Shown here: piece after piece, positions 16 to 51,783 of the stretch
How the letters are laid out: every line of letters starts with the position of its first letter
Position numbering within the stretch: the first letter of the stretch is position 1
Assembly: GCA_947168815.1 (NCBI GenBank)
Contig: CAMVNG010000006.1
Span: forward strand, 1 to 52,397
Length of the DNA stretch: 52,397 nucleotides
Direction: 5' to 3'
Source: an uncultured bacterium
Lineage (GTDB): Bacteria; Patescibacteriota; Gracilibacteria; Absconditabacterales; Absconditicoccaceae
Translations under genes and position numbers: made by a program
The notes under the pieces: generated by a model
The model's input: only the letters and a program-made list of their open reading frames with translations
What the model was told of the DNA's origin: nothing
The model's database searches: none

Positions 16-291
16 ATGAGAAAGTTATTAATTGTTTTAGCGTGTTTCATCTGTTTACAGATGTTCACTTCCTGCGAGTCTTGTTCTCGTGAGATGAAGA
101 CCATTGGCTCTGATATCTCAGGCGGTTTGAATAGAACTGCAGTCCTAATGGACTATAATGGTGATACCATTAAGGTTTGGGAAGGTAAATTTGATATTAG
201 AGACACAGGCTCTGATAATCAGATATTCTTCGACCTCAATGGAAAGAGAGTCTGGATACAGGGTGGTATCTTCGTCAGCGAGGAGAAATAG
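16..291 (+). CDS. Small lipoprotein, TGA-free class
   Basis: A 91-aa protein with a basic start, a hydrophobic stretch and a lipobox-like FTSC (Cys about 20), so probably exported and lipid-anchored. The mature part looks beta-rich, with a pattern (NGDTIKVWEGKFD, then FFDLNGKR, then IQGGI) that I associate with small beta-sandwich lipoproteins of phages and gut bacteria; that match is from memory. AAGGAAA sits 6 nt before ATG. All about ten glycines are GGN, none TGA, and it stops at TAG before a hairpin terminator. Function unknown. Confidence 0.75.
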   Translation: MRKLLIVLACFICLQMFTSCESCSREMKTIGSDISGGLNRTAVLMDYNGDTIKVWEGKFDIRDTGSDNQIFFDLNGKRVWIQGGIFVSEEK

Positions 292-335
292 TAAATCACT
301 TTTACAGTGAAAACTGAATTTTTTCATTAAGCTTT

Positions 336-371
336 GCTGGTTTCTATTGTGAAATAGGGACCAGCTTTTTT
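336..371 (+). terminator. Intrinsic terminator
   Basis: GCTGGT...ACCAGC stem with a partly paired inner part, followed by TTTTTT. It ends the 16..291 gene. Confidence 0.75.
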
Positions 372-440
372 CTTGATTTACTCTTTTATATTTTTAACCT
401 TCATTTATCCTTTTTTTATTCTTTTTTTATTCTTTACACT

Positions 441-992
441 ATGAACATGCTAAAAGAAAAAATTTTATTTTGGTTTAATGCTATTTTCTACATCGTTTTC
501 TGATGTATTATGATGTTTAAACCTGACTTAGCTTTAGAGACTCTAGTTATTTATTTCTGACTTGAATTTCTTCTTTCTGGTATTGTTTGAGTTGTTTTCG
601 CTATTATTGATGAAGATTATGAAGACAGACGAGTTTTGGCTGTTGTTGCAGCTCTTCAGATTATTTCTGGAGTTTTGTTGGTAGCTTACCCTGCTGCATG
701 AGAAGCTATTTTGAGAGCTTTCGTTATTCTTTTCTGAGTATGAGCAATTATTAAATGAATCCTTGTTATCTTAAGATGTATTCAATTGGCTAGAGCTTGA
801 TTCTCTGAATGGGGTTGGATATTAGCTTTCTGAGCTATCTTATTACTTCTTTGAATTTTCTTGGTAACTAATAGCTTATTAGCATTGTTCATTGTAAATG
901 GTATTATCTGATTATGATTATTATTTGTAGGTATATCTATGATTATTTTAGCTTTACAAGTTAAAAGAATTTTAAGAGAATCGCTTAAATAG
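441..992 (+). CDS. HdeD family membrane protein (DUF308)
   Basis: 183 aa with TGA read as Gly (at least nine in-frame TGA). Six or so hydrophobic segments in the paired layout of HdeD/DUF308 proteins, with repeated FGxxxLxxGI-type patterns (FGLEFLLSGIVGV, FGVGAIIKGILVI, LLGIFLVTNSLLA). HdeD was named for acid resistance in E. coli; the molecular role is unclear. No Shine-Dalgarno; the leader is T-rich. Stop TAG, then a terminator. Confidence 0.85.
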
Positions 993-1010
993 TTTTTATA
1001 ATTTAAATAT

Positions 1011-1038
1011 AAAGACAGTCATTATGGCTGTCTTTTTG
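1011..1038 (+). terminator. Intrinsic terminator
   Basis: AAAGACAG...CTGTCTTT stem followed by a T-run, 19 nt after the HdeD-like gene. Confidence 0.85.
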
Positions 1039-1239
1039 TCTAATTTATATTTTTTTATTAATGTCAATAACTTGTCGTTAGAGTCTATGTGGGTTTTTGT
1101 TTTAGCTTTTTAGAACTAGATTCTCTAATATTGACATATTTAAATTTTATGACGATTCTTCTTAATATTGACTATGTGAATTATATTCTTATAAGTTTTT
1201 TAATGATTGTATTTTCTCTTTATATTCTATTATATTTAC

Positions 1240-2331
1240 ATGAAAAAATTATGACTTTTAGCTACTCTCCTCTTTTGAGGTGTTTTGCTTGCTTGATGCT
1301 GAACTTCAAGCGTTTCTAATTATGATTTAGATTCACAGGATGGTCGTTTATCTGCTTGTATTGACCGTGTTGGATTCTATCTTAATACTGAGTCTTTTGA
1401 TGCAGCTTGGGAAGATGAACAAGAATGATGAGCTTCTTTTATCTTGAATGGACATGTTTTACGTTGAGAAGAATGAGATTTAGCTGAGGATGATGTAGAA
1501 TGTGTAATTGATATGGTCGATCGTTCTGTTAATGTAGAGTTCATGCATCATAAATATAATTGAGTTTCTCAAGAATATGAAGGACCTGTTTATACTCTTG
1601 TTTGACCTGATTCTTGATTTGATGAACAATTAGAAGCTTGAAAATTAGTTTTGAGAAAATCTTATGATGACCATACTGATGTAATCTTTATTGACCAAGA
1701 ATTATGGCAAGAATATCTTGATCCACATAAGATGTATTATTGAGATGATGTTATTTTCTCATGAGCACTAACTCCTATAGATTGAGCTGCATGAACTCAT
1801 TACTATGCTGCTGATTCTATTGAACAATTAGAAGAATTATTTGTTGCTGAATATGATGAATCTAGAGGTGATTCTTTAGTTGTAGTCTTTTCTCCTACTG
1901 GTCATACTAAAGAAAAAGCTACTTTTATTTCTGAAATTGTTGGTATTCCTCTTTATGAAATTAATCCTGTGACTTGATATACTGCTGAAGATTTAAATTG
2001 GAGAAATGAAGAATCTAGATCTTATTATGAGTTTAAACATCCTGAAGTTAGACCTGAAATAGCAAATGATTTTGATTTCGATTGAGTTGATACAATCTAT
2101 CTTTGATATCCTATTTGGTTCGGTATTACTCCTAATATTATTCTTACTTTCTTAGAAAACTATGATTTATCTGGTAAGAAAGTTGTATTATTCTGTACTT
2201 CTGGACAAGTTTGAATTGAGAATAGTGTTGAATATCTTTCACCTTTCAATCTTAATGTTATTGCTAGTAAAAGATTTGAACAATGAGCAACTAAACAAGA
2301 TGTTGAAGATTGGCTAGCATCTATTCAATAG
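1240..2331 (+). CDS. Lipoprotein with C-terminal flavodoxin domain
   Basis: 363 aa. Starts MKKLGLLATLLFGVLLAGCG: a signal peptide with lipobox LAGC, visible only with TGA as Gly. Residues about 20-205 form an exported domain I do not recognise (contains TPIDGAAGTHYY). Residues about 208-360 are flavodoxin-like (Flavodoxin_4 type): [14 protein letters not shown] is the phosphate-binding loop, YLGYPIWFG and CTSGQVG the usual following strands. Likely a membrane-anchored FMN protein. Stop TAG, then a bidirectional terminator. The T-rich 200 nt upstream holds no other supported gene. Confidence 0.85.
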
Positions 2332-2348
2332 TTTATATTTCTTAATTT

Positions 2349-2382
2349 AAAAAATGCTTGAATAACATTCAGGCATTTTTTT
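2349..2382. terminator. Bidirectional terminator
   Basis: AAATGCTTGAAT...ATTCAGGCATTT stem with A- and T-runs on both sides. It serves the flavodoxin gene (+) and the 2390..2695 gene (-). Confidence 0.85.
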
Positions 2383-2389
2383 GATTGGT

Positions 2390-2695
2390 TCAATCATCAT
2401 ACTCAGTTGGGATTTCAAGGAGGATCTCATTCTTGTTGTGAGTCTTAACGAAGAGGGTCTTGTCTTCGAATTTGACGTCAAATGCTTTGCTAAAGTCCGG
2501 AGAAGATTGTTCTAGGACGATAAAGCATGATGTCATACGGATTTGAATTCCGCCTTTGTGAAACCACTGGCTTCCATTTGAAGAAGAGTCTTTTTCTCTT
2601 ATCGGAGCTCCGATAACGACGAGCTTTTTATCTTCTCCGTCGTAGCTGATTTCTTTATCAACTTTAAATGTGAATACGAATTTTTTTTCTCTCAT
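2390..2695 (-). CDS. Small beta-rich protein, ends at TGA
   Basis: 101 aa as a standard-code gene; all glycines are GGN. The stop is TGA (2392-2390), 8-10 nt before the terminator. Read as code 25 it would run 16 residues on, through the hairpin, to a TAA near 2344. The start MREKKFVFTFKV has the same charged-then-beta-strand pattern as other TGA-free genes here. Promoter TTGAAT-17-TATAAC lies at 2731..2759 and the leader is C/A-rich (AAAAAACAAAACAAAATCCC). Function unknown. Confidence 0.75.
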   Translation of the reverse strand: MREKKFVFTFKVDKEISYDGEDKKLVVIGAPIREKDSSSNGSQWFHKGGIQIRMTSCFIVLEQSSPDFSKAFDVKFEDKTLFVKTHNKNEILLEIPTEYDD

Positions 2696-2730
2696 AGCAA
2701 TTCTTTTTGGGATTTTGTTTTGTTTTTTAG

Positions 2731-2759
2731 GTTATAGTGAATTAAATTATTGAATTCAA
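2731..2759 (-). promoter_or_regulatory. Sigma70-like promoter
   Basis: TTGAAT, 17 nt, TATAAC on the minus strand, upstream of the 2390..2695 gene. Confidence 0.7.
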
Positions 2760-2762
2760 CAT

Positions 2763-2793
2763 TAAAGGCGTCAGTTATATCTAACGCCTTTAT
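2763..2793 (-). terminator. Intrinsic terminator
   Basis: AAAGGCGT...ACGCCTTT stem on the minus strand, after the 2804..3145 gene. Confidence 0.8.
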
Positions 2794-2803
2794 AAAGTGC
2801 TAT

Positions 2804-3145
2804 TTAGCATGGTTCTGGATACCCCATTTCTACGCTGATATCTTCTCCACGTGTCGTGATGCTTACAACATCTTCGCTGATGTGGAGTTCGAATGCATCG
2901 TTGTCGCTATCGATATTCTTCTTTTTGATAACGTTGGCATTCTTGGCGTAAATTCTTGTGTAGTTAACCGGGATCTTGTGAGAGCTATCATCGAAATCGA
3001 TGTCGTTCTCAGACTCAATGAACTGGCGCTTCTTTCTGATGCGCTCCTCGTCTAGTGCTACTTCTATGGTTAATTCGCCGATTTCGTCACTATCGGAGAG
3101 GTTACCGTTGTAGTAGACTTCGAAATTTAATCTAATCTTTTTCAT
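2804..3145 (-). CDS. Small acidic beta-rich protein, TGA-free class
   Basis: 113 aa, starts MKKIRLNFEVYYNG, acidic overall, no membrane segment. Glycines are all GGN; stop TAA. It has the clearest Shine-Dalgarno in the window (AAAGAAAGGAGT, 6 nt before ATG), and a TTGAAT-17-TAGAAT promoter at 3187..3215 followed by a C/A-rich leader. Monocistronic, with its own terminator. No family recognised. Confidence 0.8.
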   Translation of the reverse strand: MKKIRLNFEVYYNGNLSDSDEIGELTIEVALDEERIRKKRQFIESENDIDFDDSSHKIPVNYTRIYAKNANVIKKKNIDSDNDAFELHISEDVVSITTRGEDISVEMGYPEPC

Positions 3146-3312: not shown

Positions 3313-3516
3313 TCATTTTACGATATTGAACATCTTATTCTTACCACAGTAGCGGAGTTTAACATCCACAATCTGGACATTAGGATTACTGTTGATAATC
3401 ATTGAACGGATCATCCGTTCTAATTGGTATCTGGTATTGATTTTCCCAGCACCAATCAAATACTTACGATTCTTCTTTTTTGCTACTCTCATAGGAAAAT
3501 ATTTTATATTTAGCAA
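3313..3516 (-). CDS. Small basic protein, ends at TGA
   Basis: 67 aa from the first ATG; a second ATG eight codons in (MRVAKKKNRKYLIG) may be the real start, since the sequence just before it is A/T-rich and promoter-like. Stops at TGA (3315-3313); code 25 would add only GALPTN before TAA at the hairpin edge. Layout (basic start, YLxG, a Tyr, paired Ile/Arg, VK) resembles the 57-aa protein at 50946..51119, so the two may be distant paralogues. Function unknown. Confidence 0.6.
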   Translation of the reverse strand: MLNIKYFPMRVAKKKNRKYLIGAGKINTRYQLERMIRSMIINSNPNVQIVDVKLRYCGKNKMFNIVK

Positions 3517-6338: not shown

Positions 6339-6350
6339 TTGTTTTTGTTA

Positions 6351-7799: not shown

Positions 7800-8087
7800 C
7801 TAGGTTGGGGCAGGTTCGTGCAGGGTGAATCCATCCTGTATGTTGCCTTTGTCCTCTTCTACGTACTCGTTACGAACTCGGGGCTGATCATCAGCGACCT
7901 GGATCGTGATTTCGGCAGCTACGAAGGCCACTTGTTGTGGCGTCGTGATTGATCCATAGGCGGGGTCAACTGTGATTACTGGCTGGCTCTTGTCAGTCAG
8001 TTGCTTCTCCGACTGCTCCATATCAGCAGGTAAGAGTTGTAGAAGTACAGTACAAAGGGTGCCCATCATTAAGATTGCTGTACCCAT
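7800..8087 (-). CDS. Small exported or membrane protein, TGA-free class
   Basis: 95 aa from the ATG at 8087 (MGTAILMMGTLCTVLLQLLP), giving an N-terminal hydrophobic segment then a polar, Gln/Glu-rich tail. A longer frame begins at 8144, but its codons 2-3 are the -10 box of a TTGACA-17-TATAGT promoter (8136..8164), so that start cannot be transcribed from it. Glycines all GGN, stop TAG, strong terminator. Function unknown. Confidence 0.65.
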   Translation of the reverse strand: MGTAILMMGTLCTVLLQLLPADMEQSEKQLTDKSQPVITVDPAYGSITTPQQVAFVAAEITIQVADDQPRVRNEYVEEDKGNIQDGFTLHEPAPT

Positions 8088-8281: not shown

Positions 8282-8863
8282 ATGGAAAATAAAACTATTA
8301 AAAGAACAATTAGGGATCTTTATTTTCTATTACGTAGACCTGTTTCTTACCCTACTGTTATTGCAATGGTAGGCTTTCAGATTGAAAGGTTTACTCAAGA
8401 TAGAAAGAAAGAGTTTAAGCATGCAAATGTGCTTAAGAGAATGTTCTGTTATCCTGATACTTACCACTGGAAGGTGGAATCTCATCCGGATAATAGAAGG
8501 AAGGTAAAAATTAGTCTTGTTCATGATGTTCATGATAAGCTAGTTTTTAATCTCTATAGAGGTGATGCTCATGATAATTATGACCCCTATTTTGATGAGG
8601 CTGAAACTACTTATTCAATCCTAATTAAACCTGTTGAGGTTGAAGATAAGGATTGGATTAAGAAGCAGAATCATTTCTTATTAGAATTTCGTCCCTATAT
8701 GGTTAATGAAGTTAAAGTAAGAAGATTGGGAAGTGGGCTGAATGATTATTCATTTAAACAATCAAAACGTGACGTTAATCGACTTGTTAGTGCTTATGAA
8801 TCTGTTTTGAAGAAGCTCTATCTGATTCGATTGAGGCGAGACATTATAAGGGATATGTTTTAA
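8282..8863 (+). CDS. Unknown basic protein, TGA-free class
   Basis: 193 aa, no membrane segment, rich in Lys/Arg/His/Asp. The few glycines are GGN. Middle region (RKVKISLVHDVHDKLVFNLY) reads as beta strands; the C-terminus (VSAYESVLKKLYLIRLRRD) as a helix. Stop TAA lies inside the terminator stem AAGGGATAT...ATATCCCTT. I do not recognise a family. Confidence 0.75.
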   Translation: MENKTIKRTIRDLYFLLRRPVSYPTVIAMVGFQIERFTQDRKKEFKHANVLKRMFCYPDTYHWKVESHPDNRRKVKISLVHDVHDKLVFNLYRGDAHDNYDPYFDEAETTYSILIKPVEVEDKDWIKKQNHFLLEFRPYMVNEVKVRRLGSGLNDYSFKQSKRDVNRLVSAYESVLKKLYLIRLRRDIIRDMF

Positions 8864-9373: not shown

Positions 9374-9649
9374 ATGACAAAGACTCAATTAACTGAAGCT
9401 CTTGCAAGCGAATTAGGAGTTTCAAAGAAATTAGCTGGTGAATTAGTTAACTGCTTTATCGACAACGTAGTTAAAGGAGTTAAAAAAGAAGGAGAAGTAA
9501 GAATTCAAGGATTCGGAACTTTCAAGAAATCTAAGAGAAAGGCTAGAGAAGGAGTTAATCCTCAAAATCCTAAACAAAAGATTAAGATCCCTGCAATGAA
9601 CGTTGTAACTTTCAAAGCTGGTTCTGACTTCAAAAAGGCTGTTAAATAG
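9374..9649 (+). CDS. hup: DNA-binding protein HU, copy 1
   Basis: 91 aa, full length for HU. MTKTQLTEALASELG dimerisation helices, GFGTF and the DNA-binding arm with GVNPQNPKQKIKIPA. All nine or so glycines are GGA/GGT and none TGA, unlike most recoded neighbours, which fits codon selection in an abundant protein. The protein differs from copy 2 at only three sites (D/S, Q/T, D/E), with extra silent changes. Own terminator. Confidence 0.97.
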   Translation: MTKTQLTEALASELGVSKKLAGELVNCFIDNVVKGVKKEGEVRIQGFGTFKKSKRKAREGVNPQNPKQKIKIPAMNVVTFKAGSDFKKAVK

Positions 9650-13914: not shown

Positions 13915-14223
13915 TTACTCTTTGGTAATGTTTACGACTTCGATTCTAATTCTATCGACGTGGTGACCTGTTCCAAAACCAATCCTTGAGATGACTAGTT
14001 TATCATGTTCATTGGTTGATCTATCGATTGAAACCAGATTTGAAATGATTTTTGGCTCGATGATTCGATAGCTTTTTGGAGCATGAATGTGATAGTACGA
14101 TTGCCTTATTGCTTCAATATAGGCTGAGTCGTTGTCGTTGTACTCTACTTCGAGAAGTACTTCTTTGCCGTCTCTTTCATCCACTCTTGAATTGATAGAG
14201 ACCTTGAATTGGACTTTTTTCAT
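13915..14223 (-). CDS. Small beta-rich protein, TGA-free class
   Basis: 102 aa, MKKVQFKVSINSR start, no membrane segment, glycines all GGN, TAA stop. TTGAAA-17-TATACT promoter at 14257..14285 and a C/A-rich leader (GAACAAATACAAAAAACC). It resembles the 2390, 2804 and 31253 genes in size and opening beta strand, not in obvious sequence. One of a tight minus-strand series of short units (elements A to D and 15181..15621). Function unknown. Confidence 0.72.
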   Translation of the reverse strand: MKKVQFKVSINSRVDERDGKEVLLEVEYNDNDSAYIEAIRQSYYHIHAPKSYRIIEPKIISNLVSIDRSTNEHDKLVISRIGFGTGHHVDRIRIEVVNITKE

Positions 14224-15180: not shown

Positions 15181-15621
15181 TCAGCGTGCTTTGTTAATGC
15201 TAGGTTTCTTGAACGTATTTCCAACTTTGCATGAGCCATATAAGACTGCGGCCAGAGCTGAACCTATCATGACTACGCTTAATAGCATTGCGAGAATACC
15301 TGCTGCCTCGCTATCTAGACCTAATCTGGTGAACATCCCGCAAGATACATCGCATAAAGCTTTGATCGTTGCGTAGGGTGAACCCATACTGCACATTAGG
15401 AGGACGAAGAGTCCAACACCAACGGCAAGTGAGATTAATTCGGTTTTCGACATGCGAACCAGCATGAACAGTATAGTCTCAATGCCGGCCATTCCAACTA
15501 AGCCAGCCAGGACATGCCCAGCTAAACCAATCTTAACATGTTCATCGTTTCCAACAGAGTAACCGAAGACGATTCCGAACACCACAGCAATTAACAAGCA
15601 AATAAGATCAATTTTTTTCAT
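15181..15621 (-). CDS. Four-helix membrane protein, ends at TGA
   Basis: 146 aa, four hydrophobic segments (about 8-24, 31-54, 62-78, 105-128), Gly-rich. About 16 glycines are all GGN. Consensus promoter TTGACA-16-TATAAT (15659..15686), then a leader with AAACAAAAACAAAAAGAAAGGG and a good Shine-Dalgarno. The stop is TGA (15183-15181), 20 nt before the terminator; code 25 would add 13 residues and end in the terminator loop. Family unknown; a conjugation- or phage-type small membrane protein is possible. Confidence 0.75.
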   Translation of the reverse strand: MKKIDLICLLIAVVFGIVFGYSVGNDEHVKIGLAGHVLAGLVGMAGIETILFMLVRMSKTELISLAVGVGLFVLLMCSMGSPYATIKALCDVSCGMFTRLGLDSEAAGILAMLLSVVMIGSALAAVLYGSCKVGNTFKKPSINKAR

Positions 15622-19290: not shown

Positions 19291-19638
19291 ATGAGAAAAG
19301 TTAAGTTGAAACGGGTTATTTTAAAAACCCTAAAAGGTTTAGGTATCACTATTCTAGTTTGTGGCTTTTTTGCTGCGATGCCTTATTGTGGAGGTATCTT
19401 ATCTCCTAAAACTGCTGGAGTTGTAACTGATTCAATTTCTGCTACTCAACTTATCTCTGCTGACAGTTCTAAGAATGTTGTCGTAGAGTTTAAGTGCAAT
19501 GGTACAGAGTTTGCTGAATGTTTGACGACATTCATGAAGACGAATACTCATTTAGAGCTAAGGAAGATTGATGATGTTCCAGGCGAAGGTTTAACGTCAG
19601 CGAAAGCTTTCAATGTGATGTTTATCTGTAAGGATTAG
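19291..19638 (+). CDS. Single-pass membrane protein, TGA-free class
   Basis: 115 aa from ATG 19291 (a GTG at 19288 is in frame). Basic N-terminus, one hydrophobic segment (about residues 14-32), then an exported beta-rich domain with a few Cys (CNG, ECLT, FICKD). Glycines all GGN; TAG stop followed by AGCTGGGTG...CACTCAGCT terminator. Leader is A/C-rich (AAAAATAAAAACAAATACG) without Shine-Dalgarno. Function unknown. Confidence 0.7.
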   Translation: MRKVKLKRVILKTLKGLGITILVCGFFAAMPYCGGILSPKTAGVVTDSISATQLISADSSKNVVVEFKCNGTEFAECLTTFMKTNTHLELRKIDDVPGEGLTSAKAFNVMFICKD

Positions 19639-20328: not shown

Positions 20329-20604
20329 ATGACAAAGACACAATTAACAGAAGCTCTTGCTAGCGAATTAGGAGTTTCTAAGAAATTAGCTGGTGAATTA
20401 GTTAACTGCTTTATCTCTAACGTAGTTAAAGGAGTTAAAAAAGAAGGAGAAGTTAGAATTACTGGATTCGGAACTTTTAAGAAATCTAAGAGAAAGGCTA
20501 GAGAAGGAGTTAATCCTCAAAACCCTAAACAAAAGATTAAGATCCCTGCAATGAACGTTGTAACTTTCAAGGCTGGATCTGAATTCAAAAAAGCAGTTAA
20601 ATAG
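20329..20604 (+). CDS. hup: DNA-binding protein HU, copy 2
   Basis: 91 aa, same architecture as copy 1 (9374..9649): N-terminal helices, GFGTF, arm GVNPQNPKQKIKIPA. Differences are Ser for Asp in the IxNVV stretch, Thr for Gln in RIxGFG, and Glu for Asp near the end. Glycines only GGA/GGT. Silent differences between copies show the duplication is not very recent or that both are under protein-level constraint. Confidence 0.97.
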   Translation: MTKTQLTEALASELGVSKKLAGELVNCFISNVVKGVKKEGEVRITGFGTFKKSKRKAREGVNPQNPKQKIKIPAMNVVTFKAGSEFKKAVK

Positions 20605-26255: not shown

Positions 26256-26660
26256 ATGGTAGAATACAGAATTAATACGGACATTGAGGACGTTCTAAAC
26301 GGTTCTTCAGATTTGCTTGCGATGAGACAAGCTGACACCTTGTTGTGTGGTAGGCTCTATTCAGTTGAGGAGCAAAATGCTCTAGATTACTTGATGGACA
26401 TTATCTTGCTAGGTTCATGGCTGATTTCGAGACTTCCTGAGCGATTCTATTCAATAGAACTCAGAAGCTTGATTCCTGTCTTTGTTGATGTTGCTAAGCT
26501 TGATGTCACAGGACTTCAGCTTGGTGAAGTTGAGTGGAAGATGCCTTCGACTGAGGATGTTACCATCATGGATGAATCTCTTGAAGATATCTATGACAAA
26601 GAAGAAGTGTATCAGGAGCCATATCGAAAGGCTATTGTAAAGATGCTTGCTGAAATTTAA
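26256..26660 (+). CDS. Acidic soluble protein, TGA-free class
   Basis: 134 aa from ATG 26256, which follows the promoter and A-rich leader; the longer upstream frame is rejected. Helical, acidic, starts MVEYRINTDIEDVLNG. Glycines all GGN; TAA stop; strong terminator AAGGTATGGA...TCCATACCTT. Monocistronic. No family recognised. Confidence 0.72.
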   Translation: MVEYRINTDIEDVLNGSSDLLAMRQADTLLCGRLYSVEEQNALDYLMDIILLGSWLISRLPERFYSIELRSLIPVFVDVAKLDVTGLQLGEVEWKMPSTEDVTIMDESLEDIYDKEEVYQEPYRKAIVKMLAEI

Positions 26661-29587: not shown

Positions 29588-29863
29588 ATGAAAATAAAAT
29601 TTGTCTTCTGTAGTTCTAAAGAAAAAGAAGAACACAGAGTAACAGTTATTGTTGAAGCTTCTGAGAAACCTAAAATTGACGCTGGTGATCTCTATATTGG
29701 AGTGTATCCAGTTGAAAGATTTGAGGTTATTGAAGAAGAATCAACTCAGGATTGGAAAAATCGTTTTCTTATTGGACCTAGTCCTAGAAATGGTTTGTCG
29801 GTGTATGGTGGATTTCCTGAAGAGAAATTTGGAATGGAATTTCCTGAGATTATTGAAGAATAG
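29588..29863 (+). CDS. Small beta-rich protein, TGA-free class
   Basis: 91 aa, MKIKFVFCSSKEKEEHRVTV start like the other small TGA-free proteins, acidic end (FPEIIEE). All glycines GGN, TAG stop, terminator AGGCATTGG...CTGATGCCT. No family recognised. Confidence 0.7.
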   Translation: MKIKFVFCSSKEKEEHRVTVIVEASEKPKIDAGDLYIGVYPVERFEVIEEESTQDWKNRFLIGPSPRNGLSVYGGFPEEKFGMEFPEIIEE

Positions 29864-29892
29864 GCATTGGTTATTTCTGATGCCTTTTTTCT
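29860..29892 (+). terminator. Intrinsic terminator
   Basis: AGGCATTGG-TTATTT-CTGATGCCT then T6. Confidence 0.8.
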
Positions 29893-29901
29893 TATTTTTT
29901 A

Positions 29902-29950
29902 AATAAAAGAAATAGGTCCTGATAATCAGAACCTATACCGCTGTGAAATG
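29902..29950 (+). repeat. 49-bp direct repeat, left copy
   Basis: Identical to 31222..31270. It holds the minus-strand terminator AGGTTCTGA-TTA-TCAGGACCT and the last codons of a gene (HFTAV, TAG). Beyond 29950 similarity fades after about 12 nt and the frame meets a stop, so this is a 3'-end duplication, not a second gene. Confidence 0.85.
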
Positions 29951-31156: not shown

Positions 31157-31221
31157 ATATTTAAAAATAAGAACCACCTTACTGTTATTAGATCAAAAAA
31201 GTATTAAGTTTTTACTTTTTT

Positions 31222-31270
31222 AATAAAAGAAATAGGTCCTGATAATCAGAACCTATACCGCTGTGAAATG
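31222..31270 (+). repeat. 49-bp direct repeat, right copy
   Basis: Identical to 29902..29950 in direct orientation, 1,320 bp away. Here it covers the true 3' end and terminator of the intact 31253..31597 gene. Confidence 0.85.
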
Positions 31271-31597
31271 GATCGAATCATGCCTTGTGTACCAGTCTGG
31301 ATTTTTCTTTAACGTTTCTACGTCAATTGCTTCTACTGGTACCTTGAATGTGACTTTGAGAATGTTTTTTTCAATTGTGTATTCGAAGTATTTTTCCCAT
31401 TCCCTATCTGCATAGGTTTTTAAGAATTGGAAATTTGCTTCTTGTGAATCGAACGCTTTAACGGTTATTGTTTTTAAGCGTATCCTGTAGACGATGAGAT
31501 CAGTTCCTTTATAGTGGAACATGATTCTTTTTTGTTTACCATCATCTTTTGTGAAAAAGCCTATTCTCAAGGTGATTTTTGTTGTTGAATTTTGCAT
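31253..31597 (-). CDS. Small beta-rich protein, TGA-free class
   Basis: 114 aa, MQNSTTKITLRIGFFTKDDG start, beta-rich and basic, glycines GGN, TAG stop in the duplicated 3' end. TTGATA-17-TAGTAT promoter and an A/C-rich leader (AAATACAAACCAC). The adjacent TA cassette appears to have inserted at its 3' end while rebuilding it. Function unknown. Confidence 0.72.
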   Translation of the reverse strand: MQNSTTKITLRIGFFTKDDGKQKRIMFHYKGTDLIVYRIRLKTITVKAFDSQEANFQFLKTYADREWEKYFEYTIEKNILKVTFKVPVEAIDVETLKKNPDWYTRHDSIHFTAV

Positions 31598-33271: not shown

Positions 33272-36200
33272 TTAAACATCATCCACACTATAAGTACGAA
33301 GTTCTACATATTTTTTTGATTCAGAGTTTGGGAATACCGAGAATTTAGAAGATTTAGAATTTATATTACTATATCTATTAATTCTACTTACATTTTCTCA
33401 ATTATTCATTCATCATCGAGGTAAAATTGTACAGAAATTTTGGATAAATTGGATATTTTCATCCACTCAAATCTCAGCATCAGATCAAATATTTAAATGA
33501 TATCCTGTTCAATTTCTACTATTATAGTCCGCTTTTCAAACAACTAAATCCTTTTTCTCTTCTTCTTTCCTATCATCTCTGAGTTCTAAAAGTTTTTGCA
33601 TATCATTGATATCTAACAAATTCAGTTCTTGCAATAAATGGATTTCCAACAAAGCAGCAATTGGATTTGTAGATGGTTTAGTCGCAAATTCATATACTCA
33701 TTCATGTTCTATTCAAACTTTAGCGTTTTCTACAACCTTATTTACAACATCATAGTACTCATTTCATGTTGTTTGTTTATACCAGCGTATAAAATAGTTG
33801 GTCATCTCAAATTCTAACCCCACACTTATTTTTAATCAATCTGGGATTTTATCTTCTGGATACATATCAAGCACTTTATTATATTCTCTTAACTTTTCAA
33901 TTAACATATGGTTTAAATCTTTAGCTTTAACTCAATCTCTCTGCAGTTTTTCAATTGTTAGTATAAGAATAGAATATCACTTATTAATTCATCAAATACT
34001 ATCCACAAATCATAATACCTCTTCTGTTTCTTCCTTATTAAATTCCACATTCAATCAAGGATACAAGGTATTTATAGAATCATTTAAGAACTTTTCATCT
34101 GAATCTTTGGGTCCAGAAATACTAAATCACCTTAATAAGAATTTAGTTGCATTTGGATTAATCGTTTTTCAGTCAAAGCACTTCCAAAAGTCAGAATAAG
34201 CAAGTCCTTTATGTATACAAAAATCTTCTAAAAGATCGAGATAGTTTTCAGTTTCCTCAAAAGAAAGACCTGATATATACGATAATAATTTATTAATATC
34301 ACTTCTCGTAGTCTGTGGCAACTTACGACTTATTTCATTAATTTTCTTATAATATTTTAGATATCACTTGTGATCATCCTCTTTAAATTCAGATAGATTT
34401 ACTAAACAAGAAGTATAATCTCATATTAAACTTTGATATTCTACTATATCATCTCTATTTAATCAAAATTTTTCCAATAGTGTCTTTAAATTCTCAGGAA
34501 CCATATCAAGTACAATTTCTTCTAATTCTGCGAAATCAGCAACAGTTGTTACTCATGCACTTTGTAGGGATTCTATATTTTGCTTTATTTTTTCTGGATC
34601 TCAATTTACAATAAAATTGTATAAATTTAGGAAATCATCAAGCTGAGTTATTCATGCCCCCTTTAAGACTTCTATATTTCCTGAATTTCAATAACAAATA
34701 ATATCTTGTAATTTTAGGTAATCAGCAACCTCTCTTATTCATGCACCTTTTAGGGATTCTATATTACTTTTTATTTGTTCTGGACCTCAACAACGAATAA
34801 TATATCGTAATGTTAAAAGATCATCAATTTTAGCTATTCATAAACTATTTAAGGCTTCTATATTCGCCTTTGTTTTTTCCGGTTCTCAAAAATAAATAAT
34901 TTCTTTTATTTTTACTAAATCATCAACCTTAGTTATTCATGCATTTTTTAGTGCTTCAATATTCCCCTTTATTTTTTCTGCATCTCATCAGCGAATAATA
35001 TCTTGAAATTTTAAGAAGTCATCAGCAGTTGTTATTCCCACACTTTTAAATGCTTCTATATTTTCTGACCTTCATCAGCTAATAATATCTTGTAATTTTA
35101 CGAAATCATCAATCTCTGTTATTCATGCACTTTTTAGAGCTCCTATATTTGTCTTTATTCTTTCTGCATCACTATTATAAATAGTATCGTTTAATTTTAT
35201 GAGATCATCAGCATTTGCTATTCATATACTATTCAGTGCTTCTATATTCTCCTTTGTTTTTTCTGGTTCTCAATAACTAATAATATTTCGTAATTTTGCG
35301 AAATCATCAGCAGCTGTTATTCAAATACCTTTTAGGGTTTCTATATTGGCCTTTATTTTTTCTGAATCTCAATAATGAATAATTGTTCATAATTTTGCGA
35401 AATCATCAGCAGCTGTTATTCATACACTATGCAGTGCTTCTATATTCTCTGGAATTCAAGTATAAATAACACCTTCTAGTTTTATGAGATCATCAACAGC
35501 TGTTATTCATACCTTTTTTAAAGACGCTACATTCGTCTTAATTTGTTCTGGATTTCAACGATAAATAATATCCTGTACTTTTATGAGATCATCAGCACTT
35601 GTTATTCATATGCTTTTTAGTGCCTCTATATTCTCTGGATGTCAAAAACGAATAACATCAGTTAATTTTACGAAATCATCGATAGCCGTTATTCATACAC
35701 TTTGAAGTGCTTCTATACTCGTCTTTATTTTTTCTGAATCGCAATTACGAATAATATCTTTTACTTTTACGAAATCATCAACAGCCGTTATTCATACACT
35801 TTGAAGTGCTTCTATACTCGTCTTTATTTTTTCTGGATAAGAAAAACGAATAGTATCCTTTAGTTTTATAAAATCAGCAGTTTCTGTTATTCATACACTT
35901 TTTAGGGCTGCTATATTCGCCTTTATTCCTTCTGGATCTCAATCAGAAGCAAAATCTTTTAATCTTACGATATAATCAACATCTGTTATTCATAGATCTT
36001 TTAGGATTGCTATACTTTCTGGTCTTCAATAATGAATAATATCTTTTACCTTTTTGAAATCAGCAATCTCTGTTATTCCTAAATCTTTTAGAGCTTCTAT
36101 ATTCTTCTTTGTCCTTTCTACATCTTGAATATAAGTAGTATCCTGAAATTTTACGAAATCATCAGCATCTTTTATTCACATACTATACAGTGTTTCTATA

Positions 36201-37411
36201 TTTTCCGGATATCAAAAACGAATAACATCTATTAATTTTACGAGATCATCGATATTTGTTATTCATACCTTTTTCAGTGCTTCTATATTTATCTTTATTT
36301 TCTCTGGATCTCAACGATATATAATATCTTGTAATTTTACGAGATCATCGATATTTGTTATTCATACACTTCTTAGTGCTTCTATATTCGTCTTGATTAC
36401 TTCTGTATCTCAATAACGAATAATATTTCGTATTTTTTTGAAATCATCAATCTCTGTTATTCATATACTTCTTAGTGCTTCCATATTCTCCTTTACTTTT
36501 TCTTGCTCTCCTGAACTAATAATATGTCGTAATTTTAAGAAATCATCAGGATCTGTTATTCATAGATATTTTAGGATGTCTAGCTTCTTCTTTACTGTTT
36601 CTGCATCTCGATAACGAATAATCTCTTTTAATTTTATAAAATCATCAATCTTAGTTATTCATGAGCTTTTTAGTAATCCTATATTTGTCTTTACTCTTTC
36701 TAGATCGCAATACGGAATAAGAGGTCGGAATTTTTCTAGATCATCAACATTTTTCCCTCATAGTTCTAATAGAGCTTCTATTGTTGCTGCATCTCATCAT
36801 TTAATAACATCTCTTAATTTTACAAAATCATCAATCTTAGTTATTCATGCATCTCTTAGCATTCCTATGTTCGTCTTTATTCTCTCTGGATCTCAATTAA
36901 TAATAAGCTCTAACATTTTTTGGAGATGTTCATCTCACAGATTTTTAAAATCTTCTTTCCCCATATTTAATGCTTCATGAAAAGCATCAATATTCCCTTT
37001 TATTGTATCTTTAAATCCTTTTAATTCCTCTTCATTTTCTAATAAATCATTTACCTCTTTTTCCAATCATTCTATATTTTCTCATCATTTTAATACCTCG
37101 ACTATTAATTGGGTTCCTAAAAATTCATATCAGGCAGGAAATAATGATTGTACTTTGGTTTTCAATTTTGCCATACGACTTGAGAATTTTGTATATTCTC
37201 ATTGTAGATTTTCAGATTCTGGATCAGAAAAAAATCAGTTAAAACTATTTTTTAAATCTGATTCTTTATGCATTTCTGTAGAATCTAATGATAATGCTCA
37301 TAATATTTCTTCTTTCTTCTCTTGTGTAATATTTCAAAGACTTTCTTCATAAGTTAAAAATCACACAGCTTGTGCTTGTAATTCTTCATTAGATTTCTTT
37401 CTGATGGCCAT
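33272..37411 (-). CDS. Giant helical-repeat (solenoid) protein
   Basis: 1379 aa with about 90 TGA glycines. Residues 1-165 are a charged helical head. About 165-990 hold roughly 25 tandem repeats of 33 aa (some 29): GITxxDDxxKxxxII-xx-GDPEKIKxNIEALKxx. The two residues after the II pair (YR, RF, SS, RY...) vary between repeats, the rest is conserved. The C-terminus (about 1000-1379) is non-repetitive and ends NRYSNINSKSSK...VELRTYSVDDV. The period and the EKIKxNIEALKxxGI pattern recall mTERF and, less so, TALE-like nucleic-acid-binding repeats; a protein-binding scaffold is equally open. Confidence 0.82.
34500..36950 (-). repeat. Protein-coding tandem repeat, about 99-bp period
   Basis: About 25 degenerate units encoding the solenoid. 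On the plus strand each shows ATCATC near GATGAT, TTATTCAT (glycine TGA plus Ile-Thr), and a GCTTCTATATT (NIEA) block. Confidence 0.88.
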
Positions 37412-49051: not shown

Positions 49052-49653
49052 TTATTCTGATATTTATTAAGCATTTCTCTATAAGTATCTCTGAGAAACT
49101 TACGATTTTTGTATCCTCTATAAATGACAGGTATTCCTATCAATATATAGCTTCAGATAATAAAGAACATAAATTTAAAACTTAATAAATATGATCAAAT
49201 TCATATTCCAATCATAAGATAAGATATTAATGCAATTGCTATATATAATTCTTTCTTTTCTTCTATTTTAACGTATTCGTATTCTATTCTTAAAGTATTA
49301 TAGAGTTTTTCTAATGTATCATATTTCTTATGTTTTTGAAGAAGTAATATTTCAAGAAAAACTATTAATTTGTCTCTATAGGTGAATAGACTTCGTGAAT
49401 TTAATATACACATTACTATATCTGGTCTTTCTTTTAATACTTTTAGAGGTATTTTATATTGTTTAGCTGTTAATCTTCATCCTTTTGATTCTATATATTT
49501 ATCGATATCTTCAGGTGTTGCAAATTTTGTTTTCATGAGAAAATCTTGATCTTTTTTAGCTTCAATTTCTTCTTTAGATTTTTTAGTTGTTTTAGTCTTT
49601 TTAACTTTTTTTGTTTCTTTTGGAGCTTCTTTAGTTTTCTCTTTTTTAATCAT
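49048..49653 (-). CDS. Two-TM membrane protein with basic N-terminus
   Basis: 201 aa. Lys/Thr/Glu-rich N-terminus (residues 1-35), helical middle, and a pair of membrane helices near 140-180 (LYIAIALISYLMIGIGIGSY split as LYIAIALISY, LMIGIGIGSY, and FFIIGSYILIGIPVIY). Four to five TGA glycines. Convergent with the peptidase-like gene; stop codons overlap. No family recognised. Confidence 0.75.
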
Positions 49654-49737
49654 TTTTGTTTTTGATATTTAAAGATATCTTATTACTTCTCTATTATAGT
49701 TTATACCTCTAAAATATGCAAATTTAGAATTTAAGAA

Positions 49738-49770
49738 AAGAGAATGAGCAGTTAACTCATCCTCTTGTTT
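49738..49770 (-). terminator. Intrinsic terminator
   Basis: GAGGATGAG...CTCATTCTC stem (one G-U) followed by TTTTC, 12 nt after the TGA of the 49772..50461 gene. Confidence 0.8.
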
Positions 49771-49771
49771 C

Positions 49772-50461
49772 TCATTTCGTCAATTCAACGTCTCTTGTTT
49801 TCAGATTCAACAGATTTGTTAAACTTGGTTTTATCTTCATGTCTTTATAATGTACTCCATTCAGGAAGAACATATCTAAAGCTTTTAAGTGAATATCTTC
49901 ACAGTGAGCACGAACCAAGTTAAAGGTAATCTTGTTAGGATTGTATCCAGAGGTAATACACAGAACACAGAAGAAAATGGTAACCATATCTAAACATTTT
50001 GGTAAATCGCAAATGATTTCTTTGTTGTAGATAGTGACTTCAAGGTTTAATGTATTAACCCTGCTATTTTCTCCTAATGGCTCAGTAATCTTGCATATCG
50101 GTGCAGTGATATCGTCAGCCTCTTTTAAGAATGGTAATTTGATTGATTTACCGTTCTTAAAGTCACCAACATGATGCTTTGTTGATACAAAATTATTGAT
50201 TGTTCTGTTGTATTCCTCGAATTCTTTCAGAGGTAGTTGGTTGATTTTAGAGATCATTTCCGAGATTCTTTTCTTCGGAAATTCCGCGATGATGGGGAAC
50301 CCATCCTCAAAGGGCCTTGCATGAATTTTCCTTTTATTTACCATCTCGAACTGGTATTCGAGGGTATAGGTAGGAAGCGAGAGCCCCGTCTTGCCTTCAG
50401 GATCAGTATACCTTTCTCCTCGGCTGCATAAATCATAGATAAGTGTTTGAAATTTTTTCAT
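49772..50461 (-). CDS. Unknown 229-aa protein, ends at TGA
   Basis: Largest TGA-free gene: 229 aa, all glycines GGN, GC and codon use (CGA, GGG, CTC) unlike the neighbours. Mixed alpha/beta, no membrane segment; MKKFQTLIYDLCSRGERYTD start. Stops at TGA (49774-49772) just before a terminator; code 25 would add 16 residues through the hairpin. TTTAAA-16-TATAAG promoter (50490..50517) and an A-rich leader. No family recognised. Confidence 0.8.
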   Translation of the reverse strand: MKKFQTLIYDLCSRGERYTDPEGKTGLSLPTYTLEYQFEMVNKRKIHARPFEDGFPIIAEFPKKRISEMISKINQLPLKEFEEYNRTINNFVSTKHHVGDFKNGKSIKLPFLKEADDITAPICKITEPLGENSRVNTLNLEVTIYNKEIICDLPKCLDMVTIFFCVLCITSGYNPNKITFNLVRAHCEDIHLKALDMFFLNGVHYKDMKIKPSLTNLLNLKTRDVELTK

Positions 50462-50489
50462 ATAACTCAGTTTTTTTGTTTTTCACTTA

Positions 50490-50517
50490 CTTATAACTAT
50501 TTACTTTTTGATTTAAA
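50490..50517 (-). promoter_or_regulatory. Sigma70-like promoter
   Basis: TTTAAA, 16 nt, TATAAG, upstream of the 49772..50461 gene; divergent from the 50537 promoter. Confidence 0.5.
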
Positions 50518-50536
50518 GATATATTATATACTTTTC

Positions 50537-50565
50537 TTGAATTTGATGATTTGAATATGTATATC
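50537..50565 (+). promoter_or_regulatory. Sigma70-like promoter
   Basis: TTGAAT, 17 nt, TATATC, 29 nt before the 50595 ATG. Confidence 0.62.
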
Positions 50566-50594
50566 TTTTATACAATTTATTATTTGGATTCATT

Positions 50595-50873
50595 ATGGAG
50601 ACTCCTGAACTTAAGAATAGAATTGTTATTTCAAAAAGAAACTCAAATACTTCTAAGAAGTTATTAGATACATTAAATAGTATTTCTAATGAAGATATTA
50701 CTAATGTAGGAGATGCAATTATTGAGAAAATGAATCAACCTGTTCATGATCTAGATTGGGCTAAACGTGTTATTTATGATGAAGATGAATCAATAGAACA
50801 TTATGAGAACTATAGAGAAGCTTTAGATATTTTAGCAAATTCAGGTGATTCTTTCTTGTTTATGGAGTTTTAA
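50595..50873 (+). CDS. Small acidic helical protein, TGA-free class
   Basis: 92 aa, METPELKNRIVISKRNSNTS start, mostly helical, acidic C-terminus; the glycines are GGN; TAA stop. First of three plus-strand TGA-free genes, each with its own promoter. No family recognised. Confidence 0.7.
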   Translation: METPELKNRIVISKRNSNTSKKLLDTLNSISNEDITNVGDAIIEKMNQPVHDLDWAKRVIYDEDESIEHYENYREALDILANSGDSFLFMEF

Positions 50874-50876
50874 CTC

Positions 50877-50905
50877 TTGTATTTAACTCCTCTGTTCTTT
50901 ATAAC
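50877..50905 (+). promoter_or_regulatory. Sigma70-like promoter
   Basis: TTGTAT, 17 nt, TATAAC, then an A/C-rich leader (AACATAACCACAAACACAAA). Confidence 0.68.
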
Positions 50906-50945
50906 GTATTAGATAACTAAACATAACCACAAACACAAATTAATT

Positions 50946-51119
50946 ATGAAAAAAGCTAGAAAATTAAGCCGTAGTTACCTTAGAGGAAGGCATTATCACC
51001 ATTATTATGAACAATCTGTTTTTATAATGCGTCGAATTATTGCTCGTAGGTATGGTGTGCCGATTGCGTCTGTGAAATACAAACCTCGGTTTGATCGATA
51101 TTATGTTTTTATGAACTAA
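50946..51119 (+). CDS. 57-aa very basic protein, TGA-free class
   Basis: MKKARKLSRSYLRGRHYHHY start: Lys/Arg/His-rich, probably nucleic-acid binding. YLxG then paired Arg/Ile and SVKYKPRF parallel the 3313..3516 protein. Glycines GGN. Clear promoter, terminator just downstream. Function unknown. Confidence 0.72.
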   Translation: MKKARKLSRSYLRGRHYHHYYEQSVFIMRRIIARRYGVPIASVKYKPRFDRYYVFMN

Positions 51120-51131
51120 ATTACTGCGCAG

Positions 51132-51167
51132 TGAAGAGTTAATAGTCAGATTTGCTATTAACTTTTT
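51132..51167 (+). terminator. Intrinsic terminator
   Basis: AGTTAATAG...CTATTAACT stem then T6. Confidence 0.85.
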
Positions 51168-51185
51168 TATTTACTTTTCAAATTC

Positions 51186-51213
51186 TTGACAATTTCTTAT
51201 TAGTATATAAAAT
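51186..51213 (+). promoter_or_regulatory. Sigma70-like promoter
   Basis: TTGACA, 16 nt, TAAAAT before the 51247 gene. Confidence 0.6.
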
Positions 51214-51246
51214 TATTTCAGCTTTATATTTTACATACACTTTCAA

Positions 51247-51783
51247 ATGAGAAAAACAAAATCAAGTTTAGAAAAAGCAGTAGAGAAGAATGGTTCAGAC
51301 ATTAATGGTTTTAAAAAAGCTACTATCAAAAAGCAACTTGTAAAAACCTTAACTGCTAGTAAAGAATCTATTGATGTTAAAGAATACTCAATTAATGATG
51401 CTATCCAAGCTTTACGTTTATGGAGGAATAGTGAATTTAAAGATATTGATCTAGGAGGATTAAATACTGCTAAATCAAAGAAACTTTTAGCTAAGTATAA
51501 GGAACTTTATAAAGATGGAAGCTTTGATTATCAAAGTGAAGAGTTTATTCCATTAGATAATAAATTGGCTATTTTACTTATTTTGGAGAATGGTGGAACT
51601 GCTATTTCTAGATATATGTTAGGTAGAGATGTTACTGAAGGTGATTTCCAACATTGGGTTCCTAATTTCGCTGATAAGTGGAATAATGGATTCTTTAATA
51701 TTGGACTTAAAGAAAGTGGTAAAATTAAAGCTAAATATGAAGTACATGGTGATGCTGTAAAAGTTATTATGGAAAGGATTTAA
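51247..51783 (+). CDS. Unknown 178-aa protein, TGA-free class
   Basis: 178 aa, helical and basic at the N-terminus (MRKTKSSLEKAVEKNGSD), a middle DIGLGG-like turn region and a C-terminal beta part (KIKAKYEVHGDAVKVIMERI). About 13 glycines, all GGN. TAA stop, terminator GAAGGAA...TTCCTTC. No family recognised. Confidence 0.75.
   Translation: MRKTKSSLEKAVEKNGSDINGFKKATIKKQLVKTLTASKESIDVKEYSINDAIQALRLWRNSEFKDIDLGGLNTAKSKKLLAKYKELYKDGSFDYQSEEFIPLDNKLAILLILENGGTAISRYMLGRDVTEGDFQHWVPNFADKWNNGFFNIGLKESGKIKAKYEVHGDAVKVIMERI

Follow-up and report, generated by a model that had tools for sequence, protein, structure and literature searches.

Agrobacterium-type T-DNA genes are kept in the genome of a donor and are written for expression by another cell. 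The genes described here, hereafter referred to as class B, similarly carry the code and stops of another cell and are conserved over time, but they form many scattered units, and their promoters are of a type that native genes also use. In a non-systematic look, neither borders nor a transfer island or other contiguous unit for transfer were apparent. PF03432 relaxase was not found in the search for transfer functions, while a TraG-type coupling domain (TraG-D_C) gave two matches.

For Gracilibacteria and Absconditabacteria, Liu et al. (2023; PMC10746230) predicted code-11-compatible phages, in which other stops lie close behind TGA; all prophages found in that study use code 25. Like these phages as described there, class B has no in-frame TGA, is readable in both codes and is associated with code-25 bacteria. 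Unlike them, it is scattered in the chromosome, in some cases in place, and shows no excess of back-up stops. Class B does not make up a contiguous phage genome with capsid, portal or terminase genes: 100 proteins between them matched 14 PHROG families, a single one of which carries a virion-structural label, with no portal or terminase family among them. No previous description of resident genes lacking TGA in code-25 genomes was found in a literature search, and a search on mRNA transfer returned nothing relevant.

The window, i.e., the whole stretch of DNA analyzed, comprises 52,397 nucleotides of contig CAMVNG010000006.1 from an uncultured bacterium of the Absconditicoccaceae (GCA_947168815.1; genome G000, with G001 and G002 as congeners). 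Class B comprises genes without in-frame TGA and with glycine encoded as GGN only, in the window with higher GC3 than natives and mostly with A/C-rich leaders and terminators of their own; GC4 denotes GC at four-fold sites. The 14 class-B genes in the window (Table 1), a partly hand-picked list, contained 86 glycine codons, all 86 of which were GGN, and no in-frame TGA. In 37 native window genes, TGA accounted for 677 of 922 glycine codons, a share (0.73) that is biased upward because these genes were selected for at least three TGA; a set of 378 genes called regardless of glycine codon over 432 kb of the genome gave 4941 TGA among 8408 glycine codons. The stop was TGA in 4 of the 14 genes, each with a terminator-like hairpin within about 30 nt on the 3' side.

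Table 1. Class-B genes of the window and TGA-free genes assigned to the native set.
Position	Strand	Assignment	Length (aa)	Stop	Remarks
16..291	+	class B, small lipoprotein-like, phage family phrog_2316		TAG	9 GGN, 0 TGA; at contig edge, leader 15 nt
2390..2695	-	class B orphan	101	TGA	terminator stem about 10 nt downstream
2804..3145	-	class B	113	TAA	PHROG match weak and partial, no other
3313..3492	-	class B orphan	59	TGA	followed by terminator; mixed leader; resembles 50946..51119 (judged by eye only)
7800..8087	-	class B orphan	95		start re-annotated, moved from 8144; A/C-rich leader precedes codon 20 of first-listed ORF; paralogue L016:17719-18051, stop TGA
8282..8863	+	class B orphan	193		G001 homologue 53% identical, TGA-free
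13915..14223	-	class B orphan	102	TAA	G001 homologue has the same terminal residue, but stop TGA
15181..15621	-	class B membrane-protein-like orphan	146	TGA	17 GGN; followed by terminator
19291..19638	+	class B orphan	115	TAG	leader ends ...AAAACAAATACGTG
26256..26660	+	class B orphan	134	TAA	paralogue L010:5359-5841, stop TGA
29588..29863	+	class B orphan	91	TAG	G001 homologue 55% identical, TGA-free; mixed leader
31253..31597	-	class B orphan	114	TAG	
49772..50461	-	class B orphan	229	TGA	9 GGN; terminator stem 5 nt downstream
50946..51119	+	class B orphan	57	TAA	
9374..9649	+	not class B: HU-type protein			TGA-free, GC4 0.00, T-rich leader
20329..20604	+	not class B: HU-type protein, second copy			TGA-free, GC4 0.00, T-rich leader
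51247..51783	+	not class B			13 GGN, 0 TGA, GC4 0.02, T-rich leader
50595..50873	+	probably native, not class B			2 Gly only, TGA-free, GC4 0.00, T-rich leader

The first-pass annotation had proposed two gene populations, with about 17 genes in the TGA-free one. The populations were found to be real and discrete, and the set was corrected to 14. Both HU copies, 51247..51783 and, probably, 50595..50873 also lack TGA but were classed as native on the basis of their low GC4 and T-rich leaders. The gene at 51247..51783 was apparently among the three examples given in that annotation. Its description of the TGA-free genes as GC-richer than their native neighbours, with A/C-rich leaders and their own terminators, held in the corrected set, in which third-position GC was above that of natives and leaders were mostly A/C-rich (mixed in two genes).

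Class B was not confined to the window: further members occurred in other parts of the genome and in additional genera of the same code-25 family, with almost none in G007 and G011. Its units occurred singly or in short runs, scattered amid native genes. In the 622 kb examined, 52 candidates were found, a few of them false, from which perhaps 100 class-B genes are extrapolated genome-wide. The automatic lists consisted of table-11 ORFs, which cannot contain in-frame TGA, and were filtered for an A/C-rich leader and a terminator, so both traits are in part a product of the selection. False entries in these lists were at least L013:207-713 (an EF-Tu fragment) and L008:2865-3032. Reciprocal-best homologues in a congener were available for 601 genes, of which 56 had an A-rich leader; the TGA share was exactly 0 in 30 of these and >0.3 in 26, with nothing between, and the continuous distribution named beforehand as evidence against two populations was therefore not seen. 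Another 20 zero-TGA genes of the 601 missed the cut for an A-rich leader, about 11 of which were class B by homology. Shares of proteins with TM segments and lipoboxes, assigned by simple rules, were alike between the classes (0.48 and 0.04 vs. 0.42 and 0.04). With Lgt and LspA both encoded in this genome in the native dialect, class-B lipoboxes prove nothing, and lipoprotein processing was dropped as a class discriminator.

Drift toward TGA was assessed with class B defined in G000 only. Of the 47 automatic entries, 12 had homologues in G001 or G002 (13 homologues), and none of the 57 GGN columns had changed to TGA, whereas the native homologues predicted 29.8 such changes (log10 P -19.0). 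When 11 hand-added entries were included, some of which were already known to have TGA-free homologues, 115 columns contained no TGA against 64.9 expected (log10 P -42.4). A count of 145 Gly-Gly columns was set aside, as its pairs had been chosen for zero TGA in both members, which is circular for zero. Class-B homologues in the two congeners showed 27-85% identity, and dS was saturated in 11 of 22 pairs, which remained from 29 zero-TGA pairs after 7 had been removed by hand (antisense or tRNA-region ORFs, HU and a conserved native gene); one of the 22 had C-ends 35 residues apart and a dN/dS of 0.67. Two class-B genes, found as zero-TGA pairs, were in place between native genes in G001/G002.

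The stops of these genes alternate. TGA stood opposite TAA or TAG in 6 of the 22 orthologue pairs, with C-ends 0-4 residues apart, and a seventh pair had TGA in both members. Overall, 22 of 96 class-B candidates ended in TGA (21 of 94 without the two false entries named above). No excess of back-up stops was found behind these 22 ends, one of which belongs to the EF-Tu fragment: TAA or TAG followed within the next two in-frame codons in 1 of 22, compared with 0.11-0.23 in other frames and in TAA/TAG-ended genes. Readthrough of the TGA would run into the terminator stem in 16 of 22. The genome encodes a UCA-anticodon tRNA and one RF-1-domain protein, whose prfB score was below the cut-off. Class-B genes are also readable in code 25, so that translation by the epibiont itself is conceivable; the TGA-ended ones would then gain a C-terminal tail.

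PhoH was found in 12 of the 36 family genomes searched, one of which supplied the query, and lacked TGA in every one of them (331 glycines); the other 24 gave no match. Zero TGA had a log10 P of -107.7 at each genome's native rate, calculated from natives picked for at least three TGA, and of -18.7 when the rate was taken from low-TGA conserved genes. PhoH was in place between native neighbours in G016/G033 (42% identity), G015/G024 (49%) and G027/G035 (71%), and on one side only in G031/G023 (25%). In the PhoH tree, a branch with support 91/94 separated the code-25 copies from 30 standard-code copies. Its GC4 was within 0.06 of native GC4 in G016, G035, G033, G024, G031, and G023, but across all 12 genomes it hardly tracked native GC4 (r = 0.15), since the GC4 of PhoH stays higher in four to six of them.

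Class B is discrete, occurs in several genera and has its own leader type and, in genus g1, its own codon choice; its comparable members are old, protein-constrained and free of TGA glycine, with TGA stops at conserved C-ends. Judging from the zero TGA drift, the old in-place PhoH and the alternation of TGA stops, something keeps these genes readable where TGA is a stop. Genes meant for another host and a class selected against TGA, two of the origins suggested in the first-pass annotation, are both supported by the TGA stops and the lack of drift, which leave the choice between them undecided.

The reading that we favor, if tentatively, is that class B is a resident class held in standard code by continuing selection and most likely translated by a standard-code partner cell. 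Most of its units are small and consist of one gene; with TGA as a stop and glycine as GGN only, they would form a second resident set next to the native genes, held in that state by selection within a cell that decodes TGA as glycine. Its messages would be translated, at least where needed, by the bacterium on which the presumed epibiont or predator lives, and transcripts or DNA would be delivered to that cell. Delivery of epibiont-made mRNA may fit slightly better than DNA transfer, because the promoters are of native type and the leader, code, stop and codons are not. In this narrower form, which we consider doubtful, one chromosome would hold two codes, with a large set of small standard-code messages transcribed by the epibiont and translated by the partner; compared with injected effectors, such a bacterial counterpart would deliver the message instead of the protein.

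Promoters of the form TTGA-16/17-TATAat were confirmed for class B, and native genes use the same type: the motif scored above threshold in 54% of class-B, 18% of native and 2% of shuffled upstreams. The promoter TTGAnn-16/17-TAnnnT described in the first-pass annotation is therefore present, but it is no class marker and no mark of a foreign polymerase, and it was dropped as a discriminator; the leader separates the classes instead. Class-B leaders had 85% A at -14..-12 (67% on average and 76% at most in 5000 within-leader permutations) and T at -1 in 81%, compared with 42% in natives and 32% in a Bacteroidota sample. The A signal is not exclusive to class B, as low-TGA conserved native genes showed a weaker preference at -14/-13 (60/53%; 30 non-independent rows, including two class-B TK). 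Baez et al. (2019; PMC6847099) describe A enrichment in this region as characteristic of Bacteroidetes, whose start sites have no Shine-Dalgarno sequence and carry adenines around -14 to -11. Class B resembles these start sites in both respects and additionally has T at -1 and TTGA/TATAAT-type promoters.

The candidate partner may be a member of Bacteroidota, judging from some nearest homologues and the adenines at -14 to -12. In contrast, the Bacteroidota element TAnnTTTG was rare in class B (5.6%, vs. 26% in Bacteroidota and 8.9% in natives), T at -1 is unlike the Bacteroidota sample, and the hosts reported for related Absconditicoccaceae are gammaproteobacteria (PMC13059738). Translation by a partner is also at odds with the scattering of the units, the occurrence of PhoH in 12 of 36 genomes and its weak GC4 correlation, and the limited synteny described below.

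Among the alternatives, recurrent import would have class B live in a standard-code pool (phages, plasmids or a partner chromosome), re-enter code-25 genomes and leave before gaining TGA; we consider this rather improbable. A mobile pool would suit the positions of these genes, which shift more than those of natives: across G000-G002, 2 of 9 interior class-B pairs were syntenic, against 103 of 142 native pairs. Homologues in G001/G002 were found for 16 of 56 class-B proteins and 112 of 200 native ones, within sampled stretches of 435 and 373 kb of about 1.0 and 1.3 Mb, so that absence of the other 40 is not established. In genus g1, the GC4 of class B stays at 0.29-0.30 in genomes whose own value is 0.08-0.11. 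Some families, namely PhoH, TK, ThyA and phrog_2316, resemble phage ones, and phages readable in both codes have been described from these bacteria (PMC10746230). Against it stand the in-place PhoH of four genus pairs at 25-71% identity (one of them one-sided), the native GC4 of PhoH in six genomes and its position on a code-25-only side of the tree.

The search for outside relatives likewise spoke against such a pool, as it turned up no close standard-code copy in the collections covered. An acyltransferase reached at most 42% identity outside the genus among the best 80 of 187 matches, PhoH, TK and ThyA were <60% identical in phage records, and full-length PhoH showed 41-48% identity in Bacteroidota. 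Of five viral-contig scans, that of the lipoprotein gave relatives (best 70%); the other four, with PhoH, the 146-aa membrane protein and two orphan-family alignments as queries, yielded nothing. Phage records contained no match to three TGA-free proteins, and plasmid records none to one such protein. A close standard-code relative together with the lack of an in-place orthologue, as expected of a recent import, was not found for the comparable genes. The top TK and PhoH matches labelled 'Bacteriophage sp.' were short unannotated contigs that, in our own reading of their gene content, look bacterial.

Selection inside the epibiont, an unlikely explanation in our judgment, would involve no other cell: class B would be expressed at a stage or rate at which the UGA-decoding glycyl-tRNA is limiting, and TGA would be purged. 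Apparently highly expressed conserved genes can indeed have few TGA, with a pooled share of 0.122 (25/30 rows; the group was chosen for a share ≤0.2), and the window HU copies have none; class-B promoters resemble native ones, and the weak A preference is shared. These low-TGA natives (EF-Tu, ribosomal proteins and HU) resemble class B in having few or no TGA, but they have T-rich leaders, a GC4 of zero in HU, and fluctuating TGA numbers (1 and 5 in L008:10750 and L123:10765 of congeners, at >90% identity), whereas class B has A/C-rich leaders, TGA stops, constantly zero TGA and, in genus g1, higher GC4. Class B in genus g1 accordingly lacks native composition and leaders, and PhoH has native GC4 in six other genomes. 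This explanation also leaves the conserved TGA stop unexplained, given one RF-1-domain protein and no excess of back-up stops.

Thymidine kinase (TK) bears on the same point. Code-25 homologues with TGA glycines, named beforehand as contrary evidence, were seen only for TK of G026 and G009, with 3 and 7 TGA within the match. These copies showed about 42% identity, a different motif and a T-rich leader, and by motif they appear to be a different TK lineage (the G012 copy lies outside this comparison). TK was for this reason dropped as a case of dialect switching; TGA in the other lineage indicates that TK function itself is compatible with TGA, which does not suit selection inside the epibiont.

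Recent import from standard-code bacteria or phages with amelioration still incomplete, also suggested in the first-pass annotation, is very unlikely, because the old in-place orthologues, the saturated dS and the native GC4 of PhoH in six genomes do not support it for testable genes, even if foreign codon use and GC4 in G000 and a lipoprotein (16..291) with 66-70% identical homologues on standard-code viral contigs, present in G000 only among 59 genomes, point toward it, and it is possible for single class-B genes among the 40 of 56 without a sampled homologue.

If genes of a recoded genome have indeed stayed in standard code throughout the divergence of genera, a second translation system must be reading them. 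This would provide a sequence-only test for genes of ultra-small epibionts that act in their partners, and would perhaps point to the partner itself. Under the rival explanations too, class B would represent a natural experiment on codon reassignment coexisting with standard-code genes.

Code 25 is in use in the source genome (G000; 1.29 Mb, 18 contigs, 99.7% complete), whose contig C6 is the entire window: three TGA codons are read through in ribosomal protein L14, and a UCA-anticodon tRNA and a lone RF-1-domain protein agree with this. G000 probably belongs to the Absconditabacteria/Gracilibacteria group. Across 378 genes called blind to glycine codon choice (432 kb of G000), 4941 glycines were encoded by TGA and 3467 by GGN. 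Among genes with at least six glycines, the TGA share formed a main hump at 0.5-0.8, and 25 genes made up a second peak below 0.1.

The first-pass annotation had described two interleaved gene populations. The separateness of the TGA-free genes with GGN glycines only (hereafter class B) held, but the low-TGA end is itself a mixture of class B and conserved natives (genes of the recoded kind), so that there are three populations in fact. The low-TGA conserved natives, by sequence EF-G, EF-Tu, ribosomal proteins, and HU, had T-rich leaders and a pooled TGA share of 0.122 (25 of 30 rows, from a set selected for TGA shares not above 0.2). Class B has 14 members in the window, and none of their 86 glycines is encoded by TGA. 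GC at four-fold sites (GC4) was 0.29-0.30 in class B vs. 0.08-0.11 in the genus, and GGC (16% vs. 1%) and CTG (9% vs. 1%) were more frequent in class B than in natives. Class B leaders were A/C-rich and G-poor and had T at -1; the terminator followed the stop at a median distance of 14 nt. The automatic class B list also selected for leader type and terminator. Individual features of the window are listed in the table. A further HU-like copy, flanked by class B genes, was seen in another sequence stretch (L015:4728-5003).

Selected features of the window (GC4, GC at four-fold sites)
Position	Feature	Remarks
16-291	Lipoprotein gene	Family assigned with PHROGs
9374-9649	HU-type gene	Nearly identical to 20329-20604; TGA-free, GC4 0.00; near class B genes; conserved-native low-TGA kind, not class B
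20329-20604	HU-type gene	As 9374-9649
29863-29950	Short hairpin 3' of 29588-29863	Similar to 31220-31253, opposite orientation; by eye
31220-31253	Short hairpin 3' of 31253-31597	Similar to 29863-29950, opposite orientation; by eye
33272-37411	1379-aa native protein	Patchy Pfam matches (mTERF, radical SAM, others), no single known architecture
40194-45109	Gene run: DUF2726, GmrSD restriction endonuclease, MazG-like, Schlafen-group-3 helicase	TGA glycines in every gene; may be a defence cluster
50595-50873		Probably conserved-native low-TGA kind, not class B
51247-51783		Conserved-native low-TGA kind, not class B

Most class B proteins are orphans. In a set of 100, matches fell into 14 Pfam families, most of them represented by a single protein; these included thymidylate synthase, thymidine kinase (TK), PhoH with PIN, LemA, acyltransferase, and CxxCxxCC (two proteins), some of the matches being weak; PHROGs added the lipoprotein family of 16-291. 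Relatives, where found, were often from Bacteroidota or phages. Full-length PhoH was 41-48% identical to Bacteroidota relatives, and the lipoprotein 66-70% identical to proteins on standard-code viral contigs. Among the matches listed for the acyltransferase, those outside the genus were at most 42% identical and in Bacteroidota, and the other best match (66%) was the copy of the congener G001. The family has two forms of TK (L165-L171). One lacks TGA and has an A-rich leader in G000, G002 (also a congener), and G005 and a mixed leader in G001; the other has 0, 3, and 7 TGA within the match in G019, G026, and G009, respectively.

The absence of TGA from class B is not merely an artefact of picking TGA-free genes. 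With class B defined in G000 alone, 12 of the 47 proteins on the automatic list had homologues (13) in the G001 and G002 stretches sampled; the 57 columns with GGN in the query contained no TGA in the homologues, vs. 29.8 expected from native homologues of matching identity band. When 11 hand-added proteins were included, 16 of 56 had homologues (18), with no TGA at 115 columns vs. 64.9 expected (143 native homologues). The sole TGA in these alignments falls at the C-terminus of L237:10236-10598. When all sampled relatives were included, 57 queries (a piece of EF-Tu among them) yielded 32 homologues with 485 GGN and 11 TGA; besides the C-terminal one, ten were in TK of G009 and G026; this TK differs in sequence motif, its leader is T-rich, and it appears to be a separate TK lineage. 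In the native control, 82 homologues contained 536 TGA and 484 GGN, and none of the 82 was a TGA-free homologue with at least four glycines.

The class B genes open to comparison are old. Among G000, G001, and G002, 29 reciprocal-best-hit pairs had zero TGA on both sides; seven of these (antisense ORFs, tRNA regions, HU, and one conserved native gene) were dropped. The 22 retained pairs were 27-85% identical; dS was saturated in half of them (11), and of the remaining 11 all but one had dN/dS below 0.5.

The clearest case is the class-B-type PIN-PhoH protein. Searched with the G001 copy, it turned up in 12 of 59 genomes (12 of 36 in its own family), and no stop interrupted the match in any of the 12 (331 glycines). 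In the tree, the 12 code-25 copies fell on one side of a branch and 30 standard-code copies on the other (support 91/94), some code-25 branches being very long and the details unsure. PhoH lay between native genes adjacent in both genomes in three pairs (G016/G033, G015/G024, and G027/G035) and shared one conserved neighbour in G031/G023. In G027/G035, three more class B genes, TGA-free and 44-56% identical, were in place around it. Still TGA-free in place after divergence to 25-71% identity, PhoH is no recent import, contrary to one of the earlier suggestions. Its GC4 was within 0.06 of native GC4 in six genomes; the correlation over 12 genomes was low (0.15) because the remaining genomes keep a higher PhoH GC4. 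The match in G024 (L157) was in two pieces near the C-terminus, which points to a frameshift or an error in the assembly.

Four of the 14 window class B genes, read with table 11, stop at TGA, with a hairpin and T run shortly after. In three congeneric genomes, 22 of 96 class B candidates had TGA stops (21 of 94 once two known false entries are removed). Read in code 25, these genes would acquire tails running into the terminator stem in 16 of the 22, and no excess of back-up stops was found near these 22 TGA codons. TGA stood opposite TAA or TAG in six of the 22 retained homologue pairs, with C-ends 0-4 residues apart, and a seventh pair had TGA on both sides. This alternation at aligned C-ends indicates that TGA has behaved as a stop in class B over evolutionary time, in a cell where a single RF-1-domain protein (prfB score below cut-off) and a UCA-anticodon tRNA (labelled SeC by the program) leave no evident use for TGA stops.

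The class B promoter consists of TTGA, 16-17 bases, and TATAat. This type was scored in 54% of class B, 18% of natives, and 2% of shuffled sequence; its presence before natives means that it is no mark of a foreign polymerase. The Bacteroidota element TAnnTTTG was rare in class B. Translation signals differ: native leaders are T-rich, whereas in class B leaders A reached 85% at -14 to -12, a higher proportion than at their other positions. Baez et al. (PMC6847099) describe enrichment in A from -14 to -11 as characteristic of the Bacteroidetes, and a weaker A peak was present there in 171 sampled Bacteroidota starts. Since low-TGA natives also show a weak form, this match is only a hint.

Drift should load class B with TGA glycines, as in natives within the genus; something removes TGA. 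Part of class B could come from a circulating pool, as class B genes were seldom in the same place among G000, G001, and G002 (2 of 9 interior pairs vs. 103 of 142 for natives) and fewer had homologues in sampled congeners than natives did. G000 has two coupling-type ATPase domains; no PF03432 relaxase was found in it, and no transfer signal was identified. Individual genes may be young; of 59 genomes, for example, only G000 itself yielded 16-291. Selection inside the epibiont, at a stage without UGA decoding, is possible but leaves the class B TGA stops unexplained.

According to Liu et al. 2023 (PMC10746230), phages of these bacteria are readable in both codes, and all prophages found use code 25; the dual-readable genes there are those of phages, whereas class B genes are resident on the chromosome. 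Among the literature matches listed, we found no earlier report of a resident standard-code class of chromosomal genes in a code-25 genome.

The simplest nameable cause of this removal of TGA from class B is that standard-code ribosomes must read its messages. Relatives are described as epibionts of other bacteria or as predators on them (PMC13059738, PMC11452946), which makes the partner cell the natural candidate reader. Since the Absconditicoccaceae hosts that these sources name are gammaproteobacteria, a Bacteroidota partner is a weak guess. A promoter of native type before a leader, code, and stops that are not native would be consistent with class B mRNA being made in the epibiont and translated in its partner.
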